DNA of 64,000 nucleotides from Streptococcus mutans. GTDB taxonomy: Bacteria; Bacillota; Bacilli; Lactobacillales; Streptococcaceae. The stretch lies in contig NZ_AP019720.1 of the NCBI RefSeq assembly GCF_006739205.1, positions 1,736,001 to 1,800,000 of the forward strand, given 5' to 3'. The notes under the pieces were generated by a model. The model was not told the origin of the DNA. It ran no database searches and saw only the letters and a program-made list of their open reading frames with translations. Position numbers and translations under genes: made by a program. Shown here one piece after another: positions 1,328 through 29,544 of this stretch; position 1 is the stretch's first letter; the number at the start of each line of letters is the position of its first letter.

Positions 1328-2563
1328 TTATTTCGTAGGGTATTTATAAGTTAATAGATAATCATCATTAGATTGCTGTGCAAATTCTAAAGAGACATAA
1401 CCTAACTTAGAACTGTCATTAGAAGCATTAGAATTGTAAAAAATTTTCAAGCTTGTTTTAAAGCCATCACCATAATTTGAAATTGATTCTCTAGCTTCAG
1501 TCGGATTTCCATGCTTTTTAAGAACTTCATTTAAATTATCTCCACCCTTTCCAGTACTAGAATCACCAACTGTTAAAGCATCAACATCTGCTTGTGTCCA
1601 GTCAGACTTATAAGATTTTTCAGAAACAGTCTTTATATCTTTAGAAGTAAAATAAGCATAACCATCCGAAAGAATAAATTTACCATTATATTGCTTTCTA
1701 AAAATTAGGTGCACACTTTCTCGTTCATCGTCGTCACCGCTTTTCCTGTATTCCAAATTTAAACTTTCACCAGAAATAGTAGCATTAGATCCCTTACCAA
1801 ACTTTTTAACAACTGATTTTAAGCTATCCCCATTTTTATTAGAATAGCTAGAAAATTTTAAGTCAGTAAATTTAGACTTTGTCCATTTAAATTTAAAATC
1901 CGAACTATCTGCAATATAATCCTTAACATCTGTACTGTCTTTTGAATCATCATCGTCAACATCGGTATCATCCTTTTCGTCAGATTTCTTTGATTCTGTT
2001 TGTTCCGTAGGATTCGGATTATTTTGGGCCTGACGAACAAAAACAGCAAGCCCACTGACTAAGAAAATAAGAGAAGCCAAAACTAGAGCAATAATTGATA
2101 AGACTTTCTTACGTTGAATGTTAACAATTAAGCCCACAATTGCATAGATAAGCCCAAGAAAGGCAATAATTACATAGATAATTGGCAGTGGGGCAAACCA
2201 AGCTAAAATAAGTGTAATAACTGAAACAACGAAAGAAATAATCGGAAGAACAATGAGTTCCTTGCGAGCTGTTACAGTTGGTGCAGTTGGACTAACTGGA
2301 TTGGTAAATGGCGAAGCAACTTGTTGTTCAAAAGCTGTTTGCTGTCCTTGAGGAGCAACTGATTCCGTTGGAGGCACTGGCGCTTGCTGAGGAATTTCTT
2401 GGTTGGCAGTTCCTCCTTCAACAGCCTGCTCTAGAACTGGCGCAGCTGTTGGATTGACATCTATTGCTTGCTCAGTTTGCTCCCCTGACACTGAATTGCT
2501 CTCAGTTGGATTTTTAGGGGTATTTTCCTCTGGAACATTTTCGTTCTTGATATCTTCTGTCAT
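1328..2563 (-). CDS. Membrane-anchored protein with a duplicated extracellular domain
   Basis: A 411-residue protein of unknown function. Residues 1-100 are a Gln/Pro/Glu-rich, probably disordered cytoplasmic region. About three membrane segments follow (roughly 102-124, 126-148 and 154-177), resembling the DUF4190 membrane module. Then comes a strongly acidic Asp/Ser/Lys linker (about 188-215). The C-terminus holds two similar domains: residues 227-305 start WTKSKFTDLKF and residues 322-411 start WTQADVDALTV, each followed by a GDSL/GDNL...V(L)KK(F/H)G motif. These resemble the small BLIP/SmpA-type fold. A surface or envelope role is likely, but the function cannot be named. The start follows an AAGGAG site. 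Monocistronic, with its own terminator. Confidence 0.7.
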   Translation of the reverse strand: MTEDIKNENVPEENTPKNPTESNSVSGEQTEQAIDVNPTAAPVLEQAVEGGTANQEIPQQAPVPPTESVAPQGQQTAFEQQVASPFTNPVSPTAPTVTARKELIVLPIISFVVSVITLILAWFAPLPIIYVIIAFLGLIYAIVGLIVNIQRKKVLSIIALVLASLIFLVSGLAVFVRQAQNNPNPTEQTESKKSDEKDDTDVDDDDSKDSTDVKDYIADSSDFKFKWTKSKFTDLKFSSYSNKNGDSLKSVVKKFGKGSNATISGESLNLEYRKSGDDDERESVHLIFRKQYNGKFILSDGYAYFTSKDIKTVSEKSYKSDWTQADVDALTVGDSSTGKGGDNLNEVLKKHGNPTEARESISNYGDGFKTSLKIFYNSNASNDSSKLGYVSLEFAQQSNDDYLLTYKYPTK

Positions 2564-11761: not shown

Positions 11762-12433
11762 TTATTTATTAAAGGCTAGATAAAGGATTCCAGAAGCAAG
11801 GCCTAAATACAAAATTAAAATGGGCAAGCGTTGCCTAAGAGAGAAAAGTTTTCCTTCAGCAAAACTAGGCAATATAAAAGCAGAGCAAATCCCACCAATA
11901 ATCCCTCCTAGATGTCCTGCAATACTAATATCAGGCATAAAAAGATTAAAAATAAGATTAACCACAATTAAAGCTTGATAGCTGCGTCCCAACTGTTTTA
12001 AATATGGGTTGTGTCCAAAATAACCTAGGACAACAATCGCCGCAAAAAGCCCAAACAAAGAAGTTGAAGCACCTGCTGCAACTACATTTGGAGTCAAATA
12101 AAGCGTAAAAATATTTCCCATAATTCCTGACAAAAGGTACAGGAGCAGAAATCGCCACGAGCCCCAAATATTTTCTGCCAATTGACCGACAAAATAAAGT
12201 GCTAAACTATTAAATAGGAAATGTTCCCAACCGATATGAACAAAAATCGGAGTGATCAAACGCCAAAGCTGATTAGGATTGTGAACAACCAAGTCACCAT
12301 ACATCCCACCAAAATTAAAAACAGCTAAGGTGGTATTTGCTTGTCCTAAATAAACAACTTGCATCGTCAAAAAAACGAGAGTCGTTAGCAGGACTAAAAA
12401 AGAAGTTGCAGGATATTTTTTAAAGGTCTCCAC
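11762..12433 (-). CDS. gluP: Rhomboid-family intramembrane serine protease
   Basis: 223 residues with about six or seven membrane helices. The rhomboid signatures are present: HIGWEHFLFNSLALY (conserved H and N), the nucleophile Ser in GASTSLFGLF, and the second catalytic His in IAGHLGGIIGG. Rhomboids cut substrate transmembrane helices; the native substrate is unknown. The start is a GTG at 12433 after a perfect AGGAGG ten bases upstream, overlapping the end of fau1 by 14 bases, so translation is coupled. The symbol gluP is by analogy with Bacillus. Confidence 0.85.
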   Translation of the reverse strand: METFKKYPATSFLVLLTTLVFLTMQVVYLGQANTTLAVFNFGGMYGDLVVHNPNQLWRLITPIFVHIGWEHFLFNSLALYFVGQLAENIWGSWRFLLLYLLSGIMGNIFTLYLTPNVVAAGASTSLFGLFAAIVVLGYFGHNPYLKQLGRSYQALIVVNLIFNLFMPDISIAGHLGGIIGGICSAFILPSFAEGKLFSLRQRLPILILYLGLASGILYLAFNK

Positions 12434-12956
12434 TGACCAACACCTCCTTTACTGGAATGTCAAAAAAACTAGGCTCAAAAGTGAACTGTTGAAAAGAATA
12501 AATTGTGCTGACTGTATCACCCTGAAAATCTGCCAAGTATTGATCATAATATCCCGCACCAAAACCTATACGGTAGCCTTCATTGTTAAAAGCAAGCCCC
12601 GGAACATGGATGAGATCAATAGCTGATTTTTCAAGAGCCTCCTCACTTCTTGGTTCCTTAAGGCCAAATTTAGTAATTTGTAAATCTGCTTCATCATAAA
12701 CAACAAAAATCATTTTCCCTTGAGGATAGGTTTTAGGAACAACTATGCTTTTATTATCTCTTTGAGCTTGCTCAATCAGCAAAGATGTGTCAAATTCAAA
12801 AGGAAAAGCTAAATAAGTTGCAATAACATGTGCTTTTTGATAAGCCTCTAATTGAATAAGTTCTTCCAAAAGTTGCTCATCTCTGAGCACTTTTTTGGCT
12901 TTATCTTGTTTTTTCAAATCTTCAATGACTTGAGTACGATAGTCCTTTTTCATCAT
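12420..12956 (-). CDS. 5-formyltetrahydrofolate cyclo-ligase
   Basis: 178 residues of the MTHFS/YgfA family. It converts 5-formyl-THF to 5,10-methenyl-THF with ATP. The N-terminal basic region, AYLAFPFEFDT, VPKTYPQGKMIF, VPGLAFNNEGYRIGFGAGYYDQYL (the ATP/folate-binding signature) are all recognisable. Two adjacent ATGs start the frame (12956 and 12953), and neither has a strong ribosome site. It is paired with the rhomboid gene, an arrangement common in streptococci. Confidence 0.9.
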   Translation of the reverse strand: MMKKDYRTQVIEDLKKQDKAKKVLRDEQLLEELIQLEAYQKAHVIATYLAFPFEFDTSLLIEQAQRDNKSIVVPKTYPQGKMIFVVYDEADLQITKFGLKEPRSEEALEKSAIDLIHVPGLAFNNEGYRIGFGAGYYDQYLADFQGDTVSTIYSFQQFTFEPSFFDIPVKEVLVSGDL

Positions 12957-13100: not shown

Positions 13101-13133
13101 TTTAAGGTTTCTTTAAGGTTTCTCATATATACT
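13101..13133 (+). promoter_or_regulatory. CiaR-controlled promoter
   Basis: TTTAAG (13101-13106), five bases, TTTAAG (13112-13117), ten bases, then TATACT (13128-13133). TTTAAG-N5-TTTAAG placed ten bases before a -10 is exactly the CiaR activation architecture described for streptococcal csRNA promoters. The two hexamers and spacings are seen directly. No coding sequence follows on this strand. Confidence 0.85.
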
Positions 13134-13139
13134 TTAATC

Positions 13140-13255
13140 ATCCTAAAACAACCACTTCCCCAAGTGGTTGGGGAGATAAACTTTCCTATTTTATTTCCCC
13201 TTTTTCATAAATCTCCTGGGCATTCAATGAAATTGGATGCCCTTCCCTTTTTCTT
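13140..13255 (+). ncRNA. Probable CiaR-dependent small RNA (csRNA)
   Basis: About 115 nt, beginning roughly seven bases after the -10. The 5' part forms a nine-pair hairpin, CAACCACTT-CCCC-AAGTGGTTG (13149-13170). A long pyrimidine-rich unpaired stretch follows, with TTTCC, TTTCCCC and TCTCC, which could pair with Shine-Dalgarno sequences. The 3' end is a GGGCATTCAAT / ATTGGATGCCC hairpin (13218-13242) followed by TTCCCTTTTTCTT. Pneumococcal csRNAs share this plan: two terminal hairpins around an anti-ribosome-site region. They act on targets such as comC. The exact ends and targets here are inferred, and I do not know whether this locus is already annotated. Confidence 0.8.
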
Positions 13256-13291
13256 AAAAAACCTTGCAGACTTAAATCTACAAGGTTTTTT
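13256..13291 (-). terminator. Terminator overlapping the dapL stop codon
   Basis: AAAAAACCTTG pairs with CAAGGTTTTTT around an AGA..TCT-containing loop. It works in both directions: it ends dapL on the minus strand and could back up the csRNA terminator on the plus strand. The dapL stop codon (13292-13290) lies within the stem. Confidence 0.78.
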
Positions 13292-14420
13292 AATTCGTTC
13301 TGGTCTTCAAGAAGCCACTAATATTATCAACTGCAAATGACAAAGCTTCTTCTCTGGGACTCATCTTAGGATGATGAAGTGCATAAGGTGTGTCAATTCC
13401 CAGCCAGAACATAACACCGGGGATTTTATTGAGCAGATAGCCAAAATCTTCACCAGTCATAGCTGGTAAACAGTCTATCAAATTGACAGCAGACGCATTT
13501 TCAAAATAAGTCATCAATTGTTTAGCCAATTGAGAATCATTTTCAACTGGCAAATAGCCACCTTGTTTGAGTGTAACATCTACTTCTAAATCAAAAGAAG
13601 TTGCAATTCCTCGAGCCATTTCCTGCACCCGCTTTTGAATCAAAAGACTCATGTCCTGAGTCAGGGTTCGGATGGTTCCATGTAAGGTAGCTGTTTCAGC
13701 AATAACATTATTGGTTGTCCCAGCATGCATAGAACCAAAGGTCACAACTCCACCCTCAATGGGATCAACATTACGACTGACAATGGTTTGAACTTGTGTA
13801 ATAAAGTAAGAAGCAGCTACAAGGGCATCATTAGCATTATGAGGAAAGGCAGCATGACCGCCCTTACCTTTGAAAGTGATGAAAACTTCACAAGTCCCAG
13901 CAAATAAGGTAGATGTATTAGTTGCAATATCACCAACTTTAAAATCTGGGCGGACATGCAAACCATAGAATTCATCAGGCTGCCAATTACCAAAGGCGCC
14001 ATCTTCATACATGAGCATACCACCTGCTTCATTTTCTTCTGCTGGCTGAAAAAGAAAGAGTAAGTTATTTTTAGGCTGTACTTGCACCATTGTATCAAGT
14101 AAGCCAAGAGCAATGGTCATATGCATATCATGGCCGCAAGCATGCATACGCCCTTCATGCTGACTGGCAAAAGCAAGCCCTGTTTCTTCAACGACAGGAA
14201 GCGCATCAATATCGGTACGCCAACCGATTGTTTTTTGAGGACGAGAACCTTTTAAAAAGACTAAAATCCCTGTACGCCAGGTCCTCTGCTCAACAAAGTC
14301 TTTACCATTGGTGATTTCAGCAATACGTTCCAAGAGATAAGCTTGCGTTTTAAATTCTTCCAGACCAATCTCTGGAATTTGATGCAAATCACGACGAATT
14401 TTGATTAAATCTAAAGTCAT
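13290..14420 (-). CDS. dapL: N-acetyldiaminopimelate deacetylase (M20D amidohydrolase)
   Basis: 376 residues. It removes the acetyl group from N-acetyl-LL-diaminopimelate in the acetylase branch of lysine synthesis. Metal-binding motifs: [10 protein letters not shown], the HACGHDMH metal site, [11 protein letters not shown], and [10 protein letters not shown] near the C-terminus. Other M20D members are hippurate or indole-acetyl-amino-acid hydrolases, but dapH lies upstream on the same strand, which supports the lysine role. The start is the ATG at 14420. The 755-base gap from dapH is unusual for this pair. Confidence 0.85.
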
Positions 14421-23413: not shown

Positions 23414-23769
23414 TTTTTATTTTCTTATTTTTTTAACTCCCACAGCGACAAGAGAACAATCGTTTGCATATACTTCTTGCATTTCTCATTCACTAACTTT
23501 CATATTGATTGATATAATCTGTTATTTCTATACAATGGTATAGCCATATAATCTAAAACAAGATTTTGTCCTCTAATTGATTTACTCTGATCACTTAATA
23601 AAAATCGGATGGAATAACTAACATCTTCTAAATCAATAAATCTTCGATAAGGAATTTTAGTTAGTAAACGTTTTCCAAATCATCTATACAAATATAATCT
23701 AATTTCATATTGCATTTTATCACAAATTTATGAAATTATTATTGTTATCTATTTACCTTACTATTACAC

Positions 23770-23851
23770 AAAAAATAGAGCACACAGCTTACATCGCTTA
23801 GGGCTGCTGGATTCCTCCCCTGACCCGCTTCACGCAAAGCTGTTGCTCCGA
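23770..23851 (-). ncRNA. ffs: Signal recognition particle RNA (4.5S / scRNA)
   Basis: The minus strand carries GGGTCAGGGGAGGAATCC then AGCAGCCC, which is the conserved Ffh-binding apical hairpin (GGTCAG..GGAA..AGCAGCC). The outer arms pair: GAGCAACAGCTT with AAGCTGTGTGCTC. A TATTTTTTG tract ends it. The length, about 80 nt, fits the short bacterial SRP RNA. A promoter with TATAAT lies directly upstream. It follows the tadA operon, a familiar streptococcal position. Confidence 0.93.
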
Positions 23852-23856
23852 TATCT

Positions 23857-23885
23857 ATTATAGCATAAAGTAAAAAAACTGCCAA
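23857..23885 (-). promoter_or_regulatory. ffs promoter
   Basis: TTGGCA (23885-23880), 17 bases, TATAAT (23862-23857) with an extended TGC before it. It begins two bases after the stop codon of the preceding gene, so ffs has its own strong promoter. Confidence 0.85.
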
Positions 23886-29325: not shown

Positions 29326-29544
29326 ATGAATACAAGAATGATGGAACAATTTGAAACTATGGATGCTGAAACACTTTCACATGTAACTGGGGGCGGTCTT
29401 TACGATGGAGCTAATGGCTATGCTTACCGCGATTCCCAAGGTCACTGGGCTTATAAGGTAACAAAAACTCCAGCACAAGCTTTAACAGACGTTGTAGTAA
29501 ATAGCTGGGCTTCAGGTGCAGCAAGTTTTGCCGCTTACGCTTAA
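29326..29544 (+). CDS. Double-glycine leader bacteriocin precursor (class II)
   Basis: 72 residues. The leader MNTRMMEQFETMDAETLSHV ends TGG and is the C39-peptidase type with conserved hydrophobic spacing. The mature peptide begins G-LYDGANGYAYRDSQ and ends SWASGAASFAAYA, with two Gly/Ala-rich stretches. The start is the ATG after a perfect GGGAGG site. NlmT/NlmE, encoded at 43292-46490, is the obvious exporter. No immunity gene follows; a strong terminator does. It corresponds, from memory, to SMU.299c (bsmI) of UA159. Confidence 0.85.
   Translation: MNTRMMEQFETMDAETLSHVTGGGLYDGANGYAYRDSQGHWAYKVTKTPAQALTDVVVNSWASGAASFAAYA

Follow-up and report, generated by a model that had tools for sequence, protein, structure and literature searches.

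The feature at positions 13140-13291 on the plus strand of the window (the whole stretch of DNA analysed, 64 kb) is csRNA24 of Streptococcus mutans, a bacterium associated with tooth decay; this RNA was predicted and named in 2010 and is already known rather than a new gene. It is very probably a 152-nt non-coding RNA whose promoter is activated by CiaR; its core would likely pair in trans to block the initiation of translation. Comparison of loci across the genus further suggests, from place, structure and predicted length, that csRNA24, csRNA15 and csRNA10/Srn015 form a single orthologue group, defined by position and structure; csRNA38, linked by length alone, probably belongs to it as well. 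On a broader reading, which we regard as reasonably likely, these four would be one ancient CiaR-driven RNA fixed beside fcl, the gene of 5-formyltetrahydrofolate cyclo-ligase. They would form a three-hairpin class apart from the short csRNAs, its architecture presenting a core complementary to Shine-Dalgarno and AUG, and csRNA24 would be an expressed, CiaR-dependent and acid-induced repressor to which function could be transferred. The inferred orthology across separately named types adds something modestly new to a locus that had already been predicted in print.

The promoter was found as the sequence-only reading had described it. The direct repeat TTTAAG-N5-TTTAAG occupies positions 13101-13117 of the plus strand (TTTAAG at 13101-13106 and 13112-13117), and the −10 element TATACT lies at 13128-13133, 10 bases past the repeat. 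The site is of the kind given in the text of Marx et al. 2010 (PMC3091779), where one criterion for a csRNA is NTTAAG-N5-TTTAAG correctly spaced from a −10 element. Indeed, csRNA24 has this spacing and, as the same authors specify for location, is intergenic and followed by a terminator. The exact repeat occurs once in the 64-kb window. With up to two mismatches, 20 matches including that of csRNA24 were obtained, which corresponds to the chance level (shuffle mean, 24). The extended pattern TTAAG-N5-WTTAAG-N10-TATAMT, at one mismatch or fewer, matched 10 sites in the 2,018,796-base genome, two of them exactly, versus none for a backward-pattern control. The same genome carries an intact CiaR recognition helix, VVEVYVSKIRKKL, within an open frame of 225 aa; this helix is the one listed for CiaR of UA159 (PMC3091779). 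Together, the CiaR box, the −10 element, the intergenic site, the terminator, the nonamer AUCCUAAAA and the intact CiaR helix support the earlier proposal of a CiaR-driven csRNA.

Three one-mismatch CiaR boxes elsewhere in the genome, at positions 988479, 1353762 and 2016090 (L102, L104 and L106), are candidates for the CiaR regulon. One lies approximately 0.9 kb before a CiaR domain (989380), in a region that we take to be ciaX-ciaR. The others precede secreted-looking and membrane-anchored proteins, the membrane-anchored one being, we assume, possibly htrA.

Whether this copy had already been described was a question in the sequence-only reading, and it has: it corresponds to csRNA24 of UA159 (PMC3091779, Table 2). 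Species, promoter type and the length of 152 nt are the same, and no difference was seen in a comparison made by size, strand and spacing rather than base by base. The csRNAs tabulated for UA159 are csRNA23-1, csRNA24 and csRNA23-2, of 79, 152 and 81 nt, respectively (PMC3091779). Using the rule published there, in which the transcript starts 7 bases past the −10 element and ends at the last U of the terminator, we obtained 152 nt for csRNA24 and 81 nt for csRNA23-2. For csRNA23-1, the T runs end at nt 73 and 79, and the published 79 nt fits the second run. In some comparisons the csRNA23 sequences were trimmed to the published lengths; their true T-run ends were checked separately. The three csRNAs lie at approximately 43751 (csRNA23-1), 564548 and 1749140 of this genome. 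The distance between csRNA24 and csRNA23-2 is approximately 1.185 Mb here versus 1.197 Mb in UA159. The strand of csRNA23-1 is as in UA159 (44,425), and csRNA24 and csRNA23-2 are on the opposite strand relative to that strain. Based on these strands and spacings, a large inversion probably separates this chromosome from that of UA159.

A 2021 review marks the S. mutans csRNAs as predicted, not confirmed, and without known targets (PMC8186281). Five papers on S. mutans transcripts (PMC3610829, PMC11045139, PMC5994696, PMC5069739 and PMC5037804) do not use the term csRNA in their main texts, and the literature covered yielded no transcript data for csRNA24 in S. mutans. Against the Rfam csRNA model, RF02379, which describes csRNA1, csRNA24 scored 24.8 bits (E = 0.39), below the gathering threshold of 57 bits. 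This model is narrow: seven other sources, including both csRNA23 loci, also fell short of the threshold. At gathering thresholds, Rfam returned for the window only a bacterial small SRP RNA (23762-23859, minus strand; RF00169, 65 bits); the other weak Rfam matches in the window at E ≤ 1 were taken as chance. No match to csRNA24 was found in a plasmid collection.

A further csRNA-like gene was seen at genome positions 173282-173422 on the minus strand (L101, L196), with a CiaR box, AATCCTAAAACTTTTCTTTTTCATAATCTCC and a terminator; the published rule gives it 65 nt. No match to it was found in a phage collection, and it is absent from the S. mutans table of PMC3091779. It sits between a PemK-like toxin gene and the excisionase-integrase pair of a mobile element, as named by eye from the open reading frames, and two further genomes within the genus carry copies 96% identical to it.

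The transcript as defined by the published rule (13140-13291, the last T run ending at nt 152) begins with the nonamer AUCCUAAAA at 13140-13148. This is of the csRNA type [A/C]UCCUAAA[A/C], which according to the text of PMC3091779 is present at the 5′ end or past the first stem-loop in all csRNAs but four. Hairpin 1 (13150-13169) has the apical loop CCCC. A 9-pair 5′ hairpin had been proposed and can indeed form, by pairing of 13149-13157 with 13162-13170; the minimum-energy fold contains 8 pairs, the ninth being 13149/13170. Hairpin 2 (13170-13200) has 11 predicted pairs, 13170-13180 with 13190-13200. Its 3′ arm is UUUAUUUCCCC, so TTTCCCC (13194-13200) is predicted to be base-paired. The pyrimidine-rich loop region of the earlier proposal thus needs correction: TCTCC (13212-13216) is unpaired, but TTTCCCC, although present, lies in the hairpin 2 stem. 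The predicted single-stranded core, TTTTTCATAAATCTCC in the DNA (13201-13216), follows and is complementary to GGAGATTTATGAAAAA, a Shine-Dalgarno sequence plus AUG. It is the reverse complement of GGAGAUUUAUGAAAAA, which reads as Shine-Dalgarno, spacer and start codon. In the RNA, UUUUUCAUAAAUCUCC at 13201-13216 is an exposed anti-Shine-Dalgarno/anti-AUG element; that such stretches are unpaired in csRNAs was stated already in 2010 (PMC3091779). Each of the three csRNAs of this genome that appear on the published list contains the core. Hairpin 3 (13218-13242), a possible first terminator found by folding and by a simple terminator scan, has the tail TTCCCTTTTT at 13243-13252; in the RNA, UUCCCUUUUU lies directly 3′ of it. 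A second intrinsic terminator, palindromic and common to the convergent M20 peptidase gene, was located by a terminator finder at 13260-13291, its six-T run ending at 13291. The predicted folding energy of the RNA from 13139 to 13256 is −37.3 kcal/mol, with z = −5.8, and 0 of 200 shuffles equalled it.

The two csRNA23 genes of the same genome share the frame of csRNA24 without the two-hairpin module: AUCCUAAAAC is followed directly by UUUUCUUUUUCAUAAAUCUCC and a terminator. In csRNA24, hairpins 1 and 2, which separate the nonamer from the core, are a conserved module; as a guess, they hold the core single-stranded, and their C-rich loops might provide extra contacts. Marx et al. hypothesized that a protein binds the 5′ nonamer.

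Conservation was evaluated using a MAFFT seed alignment of six orthologues: those of the window, S. devriesei, S. vicugnae, S. equinus and two further genomes. This alignment was not fitted to the structure, although the structure was derived from it. Its consensus contains 23 pairs, 14 with two-sided changes, and 89.3% of its cells are paired versus 75.2% after shuffling (0/500). R1, a covariance model built from the six rows, matched 31 genomes out of 147 when the cutoff was E ≤ 1e-3. With E ≤ 1e-5 it matched 49 of 284 genomes across the genus; its own seed sequences account for up to six of these. The orthologue set omitted nine weaker matches (E > 1e-5) among 34 at E ≤ 1e-3, and five of the nine had loci (L144-L148). 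The locus pairs L017/L208 and L019/L210 probably come from the same assemblies, and counts of named and other genomes are not additive. The remaining 235 genomes gave no covariance-model match at E ≤ 1e-5 and may still carry short csRNAs; a query that included a short csRNA together with its promoter found matches in 139 of 147 genomes.

The place of the gene is conserved. At least one of gpsA, galU, the rhomboid gene and fcl occurs in each of the 49 loci. In 48 loci fcl lies on the 5′ side, within 310 bases in 40 and at 1.5-1.7 kb in 8; the sole locus without it, L184, has gpsA, galU and the rhomboid gene. The full NTTAAG-N5-NTTAAG repeat with a −10 element is present in 43/49 loci and missing in six relatives, in two of these by a single mismatch. 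The exact core, TTTTCATAAATCTCC, is likewise found in 43/49 and missing in six. Loci L195 and L231 are csRNA24 orthologues lacking the usual contiguous core; in L195, approximately 30 bases separate TTTTTCATAA from ATAAATCTCC.

The hairpins are conserved by pairing. An alignment of all 49 rows (45 distinct) was fitted to the structure and leans towards it; in this alignment, 21 of the 23 pairs show two-sided changes, a number reached by 2/500 shuffles. Among the 45 distinct rows, 95.4% of cells are paired versus 71.8% in shuffled and 41-55% in slid controls, and 243 cells carry a two-sided change versus 69.5 after shuffling (0/500). Compensatory changes were thus found in the orthologue group, with all three hairpins covarying. 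These data bear on the idea that the locus makes a protein, be it from a GTG-started 58-codon frame at 13164-13340 or another short peptide. The frame is open and GGGGAG stands at 13170-13175, yet substitutions in the orthologues track base pairing, and match lengths among relatives range from 98 to 141 nt. Moreover, the GTG sits within hairpin 1 and the frame extends into antisense of the peptidase gene. On these grounds the coding reading was rejected; we consider a protein product extremely improbable.

On its 5′ side, csRNA24 is flanked by the conserved neighbour fcl (12420-12956, minus strand; PF01812). On its 3′ side lies a dapL-like M20 peptidase gene (13290-14420, minus strand; PF01546 and PF07687; stop codon 13290-13292), which is the convergent neighbour in part of the genus. 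Its closest named relative found, at 87%, was that of S. devriesei, the window's own species possibly having been left out of that comparison. The description of the region as empty, with nothing coding downstream, therefore does not hold, as this minus-strand gene converges on csRNA24. An alternative is that the RNA acts mainly in cis, through the shared terminator or by antisense pairing with the 3′ end of the peptidase mRNA. In its favour, the last 2 bases of csRNA24, taken to its published end, fall within the peptidase stop codon, and the terminator is a palindrome. However, the 3′ neighbour varies within the genus: the peptidase gene occurs in 35/49 loci and pgi in 17/49, counts that are not exclusive as the loci differ in length. 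The promoter, hairpins and core are kept in most loci despite this change, and two csRNAs located elsewhere in the genome also contain the core. A mainly cis-acting role is very unlikely, and trans repression of translation initiation is the likely mechanism of csRNA24.

We next compared csRNA24 with named csRNAs of other streptococci; in print, csRNA24, csRNA15, csRNA10 and csRNA38 are filed as four separate types. The text consulted in the literature naming them does not state an orthology among the four, and figures may hint at one. The links to the named sequences rest on lengths and gene order, the published strains being NEM316, MGAS315 and UCN34.

For csRNA15 (S. pyogenes and S. dysgalactiae), the predicted lengths of 142 nt in L184 and 141 nt in L186, loci whose species were inferred, equal the published 142 and 141 nt. 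The terminator finder gave no terminator for L184, L185, L187 or L194, and the 142 nt of L184 correspond to the end of its T run. Both L184 and L186 resemble csRNA24 in place, three hairpins and core. Downstream, L184 has the rivX RNA (Rfam, 321 bits), a rivR-like gene and pgi, in contrast to the peptidase gene by csRNA24; csRNA15 is placed upstream of rivR in PMC6431027. The measured 5′ end of csRNA15 equals the predicted one, and csRNA15 is under CiaR control (PMC3091779).

For csRNA10 (S. agalactiae), locus L129 has a predicted length of 145 nt, equal to the published one (PMC3091779), and has the three hairpins and core of csRNA24. The gene fcl lies upstream and pgi 104 bases downstream. 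This agrees with the printed place of srn015, between pgi and gbs0438 (PMC9603419), provided that gbs0438 is fcl. A short csRNA was also found in the genome of L129; at 66 nt, it agrees in size with csRNA13. BLAST is stated to have given no significant matches to srn015 in other species (PMC9603419), and Srn015 was described as specific to S. agalactiae. In a DNA search, csRNA24 matched the csRNA10-type sequence with 76% identity over part of the gene (E = 4.8e-16). Because of this match, the covariance model and the gene order, srn015 would not be specific to S. agalactiae, if L129 is indeed srn015.

For csRNA38, S. equinus, S. vicugnae and further relatives have a gene at the same place with a predicted 138 or 137 nt. 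Lengths of 138 nt in S. gallolyticus and 137 nt in S. lutetiensis are published (PMC3091779 and PMC8186281). In these relatives, hairpins 1 and 2 differ in sequence from those of csRNA24 while the pairing is kept. The csRNA1-5 of S. pneumoniae (RF02379) share the CiaR promoter, the nonamer and the anti-Shine-Dalgarno/anti-AUG pairing mode with csRNA24 and are mostly shorter, at 92-98 nt, csRNA5 having 148 nt (PMC8186281).

The separately named types thus appear to be one conserved gene. If so, work in S. mutans can draw on the start sites, Northern blots and acid-induction results obtained in S. pyogenes and S. agalactiae, and, if the RNA is indeed one ancient gene, the function measured for the orthologues could be carried over to csRNA24. 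Deletion of ciaRH in S. agalactiae left the start sites of the four csRNAs undetected, and Srn015 was strongly acid-induced (PMC4448216); csRNA10/Srn015 was positive in Northern blots (PMC4448216 and PMC9603419). Expression, CiaRH dependence and acid induction were measured for csRNA10 in that species, not in S. mutans. Given the orthology with csRNA15 and csRNA10, csRNA24 should be CiaR-dependent and, given that with the acid-induced csRNA10, should be acid-induced. In S. mutans, CiaRH affects acid tolerance, competence and biofilm (PMC8186281).

The orthologues also bear on the 3′ end of the transcript. A terminator ending near 13255 had been proposed, and the hairpin at 13218-13242 with its tail TTCCCTTTTT does exist; the published end, however, is the second terminator, at 13291. 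Transcription might stop at hairpin 3 (about 13252-13255, giving approximately 113-116 nt), the second terminator serving the peptidase gene only. In keeping with this, the simple scan returned hairpin 3 and TTCCCTTTTT as a plus-strand terminator match and did not return the second terminator, the latter because the loop limit of the scan is 8. Still shorter products are conceivable, as hairpin 2 followed by TTTTTCATAA was also terminator-like (nt 31-61, terminator finder); a mixture of 3′ ends is possible given that hairpin 2 and its UUUUU were so marked. Nevertheless, the published sizes of csRNA24 (152 nt), csRNA15 (142/141 nt) and csRNA10 (145 nt) are reached only by reading to the second T run. 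Srn015 of S. agalactiae was reported at 140 nt (PMC9603419), near 145 and far from approximately 109 nt. The sequence after hairpin 3 in L184, a locus of the csRNA15 type, is TCCCTTGTTTAAA, which makes a poor U tract. Given the published sizes and the 140 nt reported for Srn015, the 3′ end is more likely at the second terminator, and a transcript shorter than published is rather unlikely.

In the proposed mechanism, the response regulator CiaR would bind the direct repeat and activate the csRNA24 promoter, and the exposed UUUUUCAUAAAUCUCC would pair in trans with the Shine-Dalgarno sequence and start codon of a target, blocking the initiation of translation. This mode of pairing was proposed for csRNAs by Marx et al. 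(PMC3091779) and shown for pneumococcal csRNAs, which repress comC and other genes by pairing (PMC8186281). A search for GGAGATTTATGAAAAA with up to three mismatches returned 117 places versus 71 for a backward control, csRNA24's own complement being missing among the matches listed. The genome encodes a ComC-like precursor, MKKTPSLKNDF...SGSLSTFFRLFNRSFTQALGK, which is that of S. mutans; together with the csRNA sizes, it places the window in this species.

The start region of comC can pair with the core alone, along AGGAGAU and AUGAAAAA, at an energy of −14.3 kcal/mol. For comparison, we used 55 gene starts of the window from a simple caller; with the core, 2/55 equalled or beat comC. By contrast, comC was not singled out among these starts by full-length csRNA24 (33/55 as good or better), by csRNA23-2 (34/55) or by the loop of hairpin 1 alone (52/55). 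A role in competence or stress had been suggested as possible, given that pneumococcal csRNAs act on comC, with the CCCC/TCTCC region for target prediction. The high rank obtained with the core, which contains TCTCC, is lost with the full-length RNA. The suggested link to comC is plausible, and comC is a possible, tentative target of csRNA24.

The best core pairing among the 55 starts, −17.9 kcal/mol, was with the start region of the gene at 1328-2563 (minus strand; 411 codons), which has no Pfam family. The window also encodes a ComC-family double-glycine leader peptide at 29326-29397 (plus strand), probably a bacteriocin precursor.
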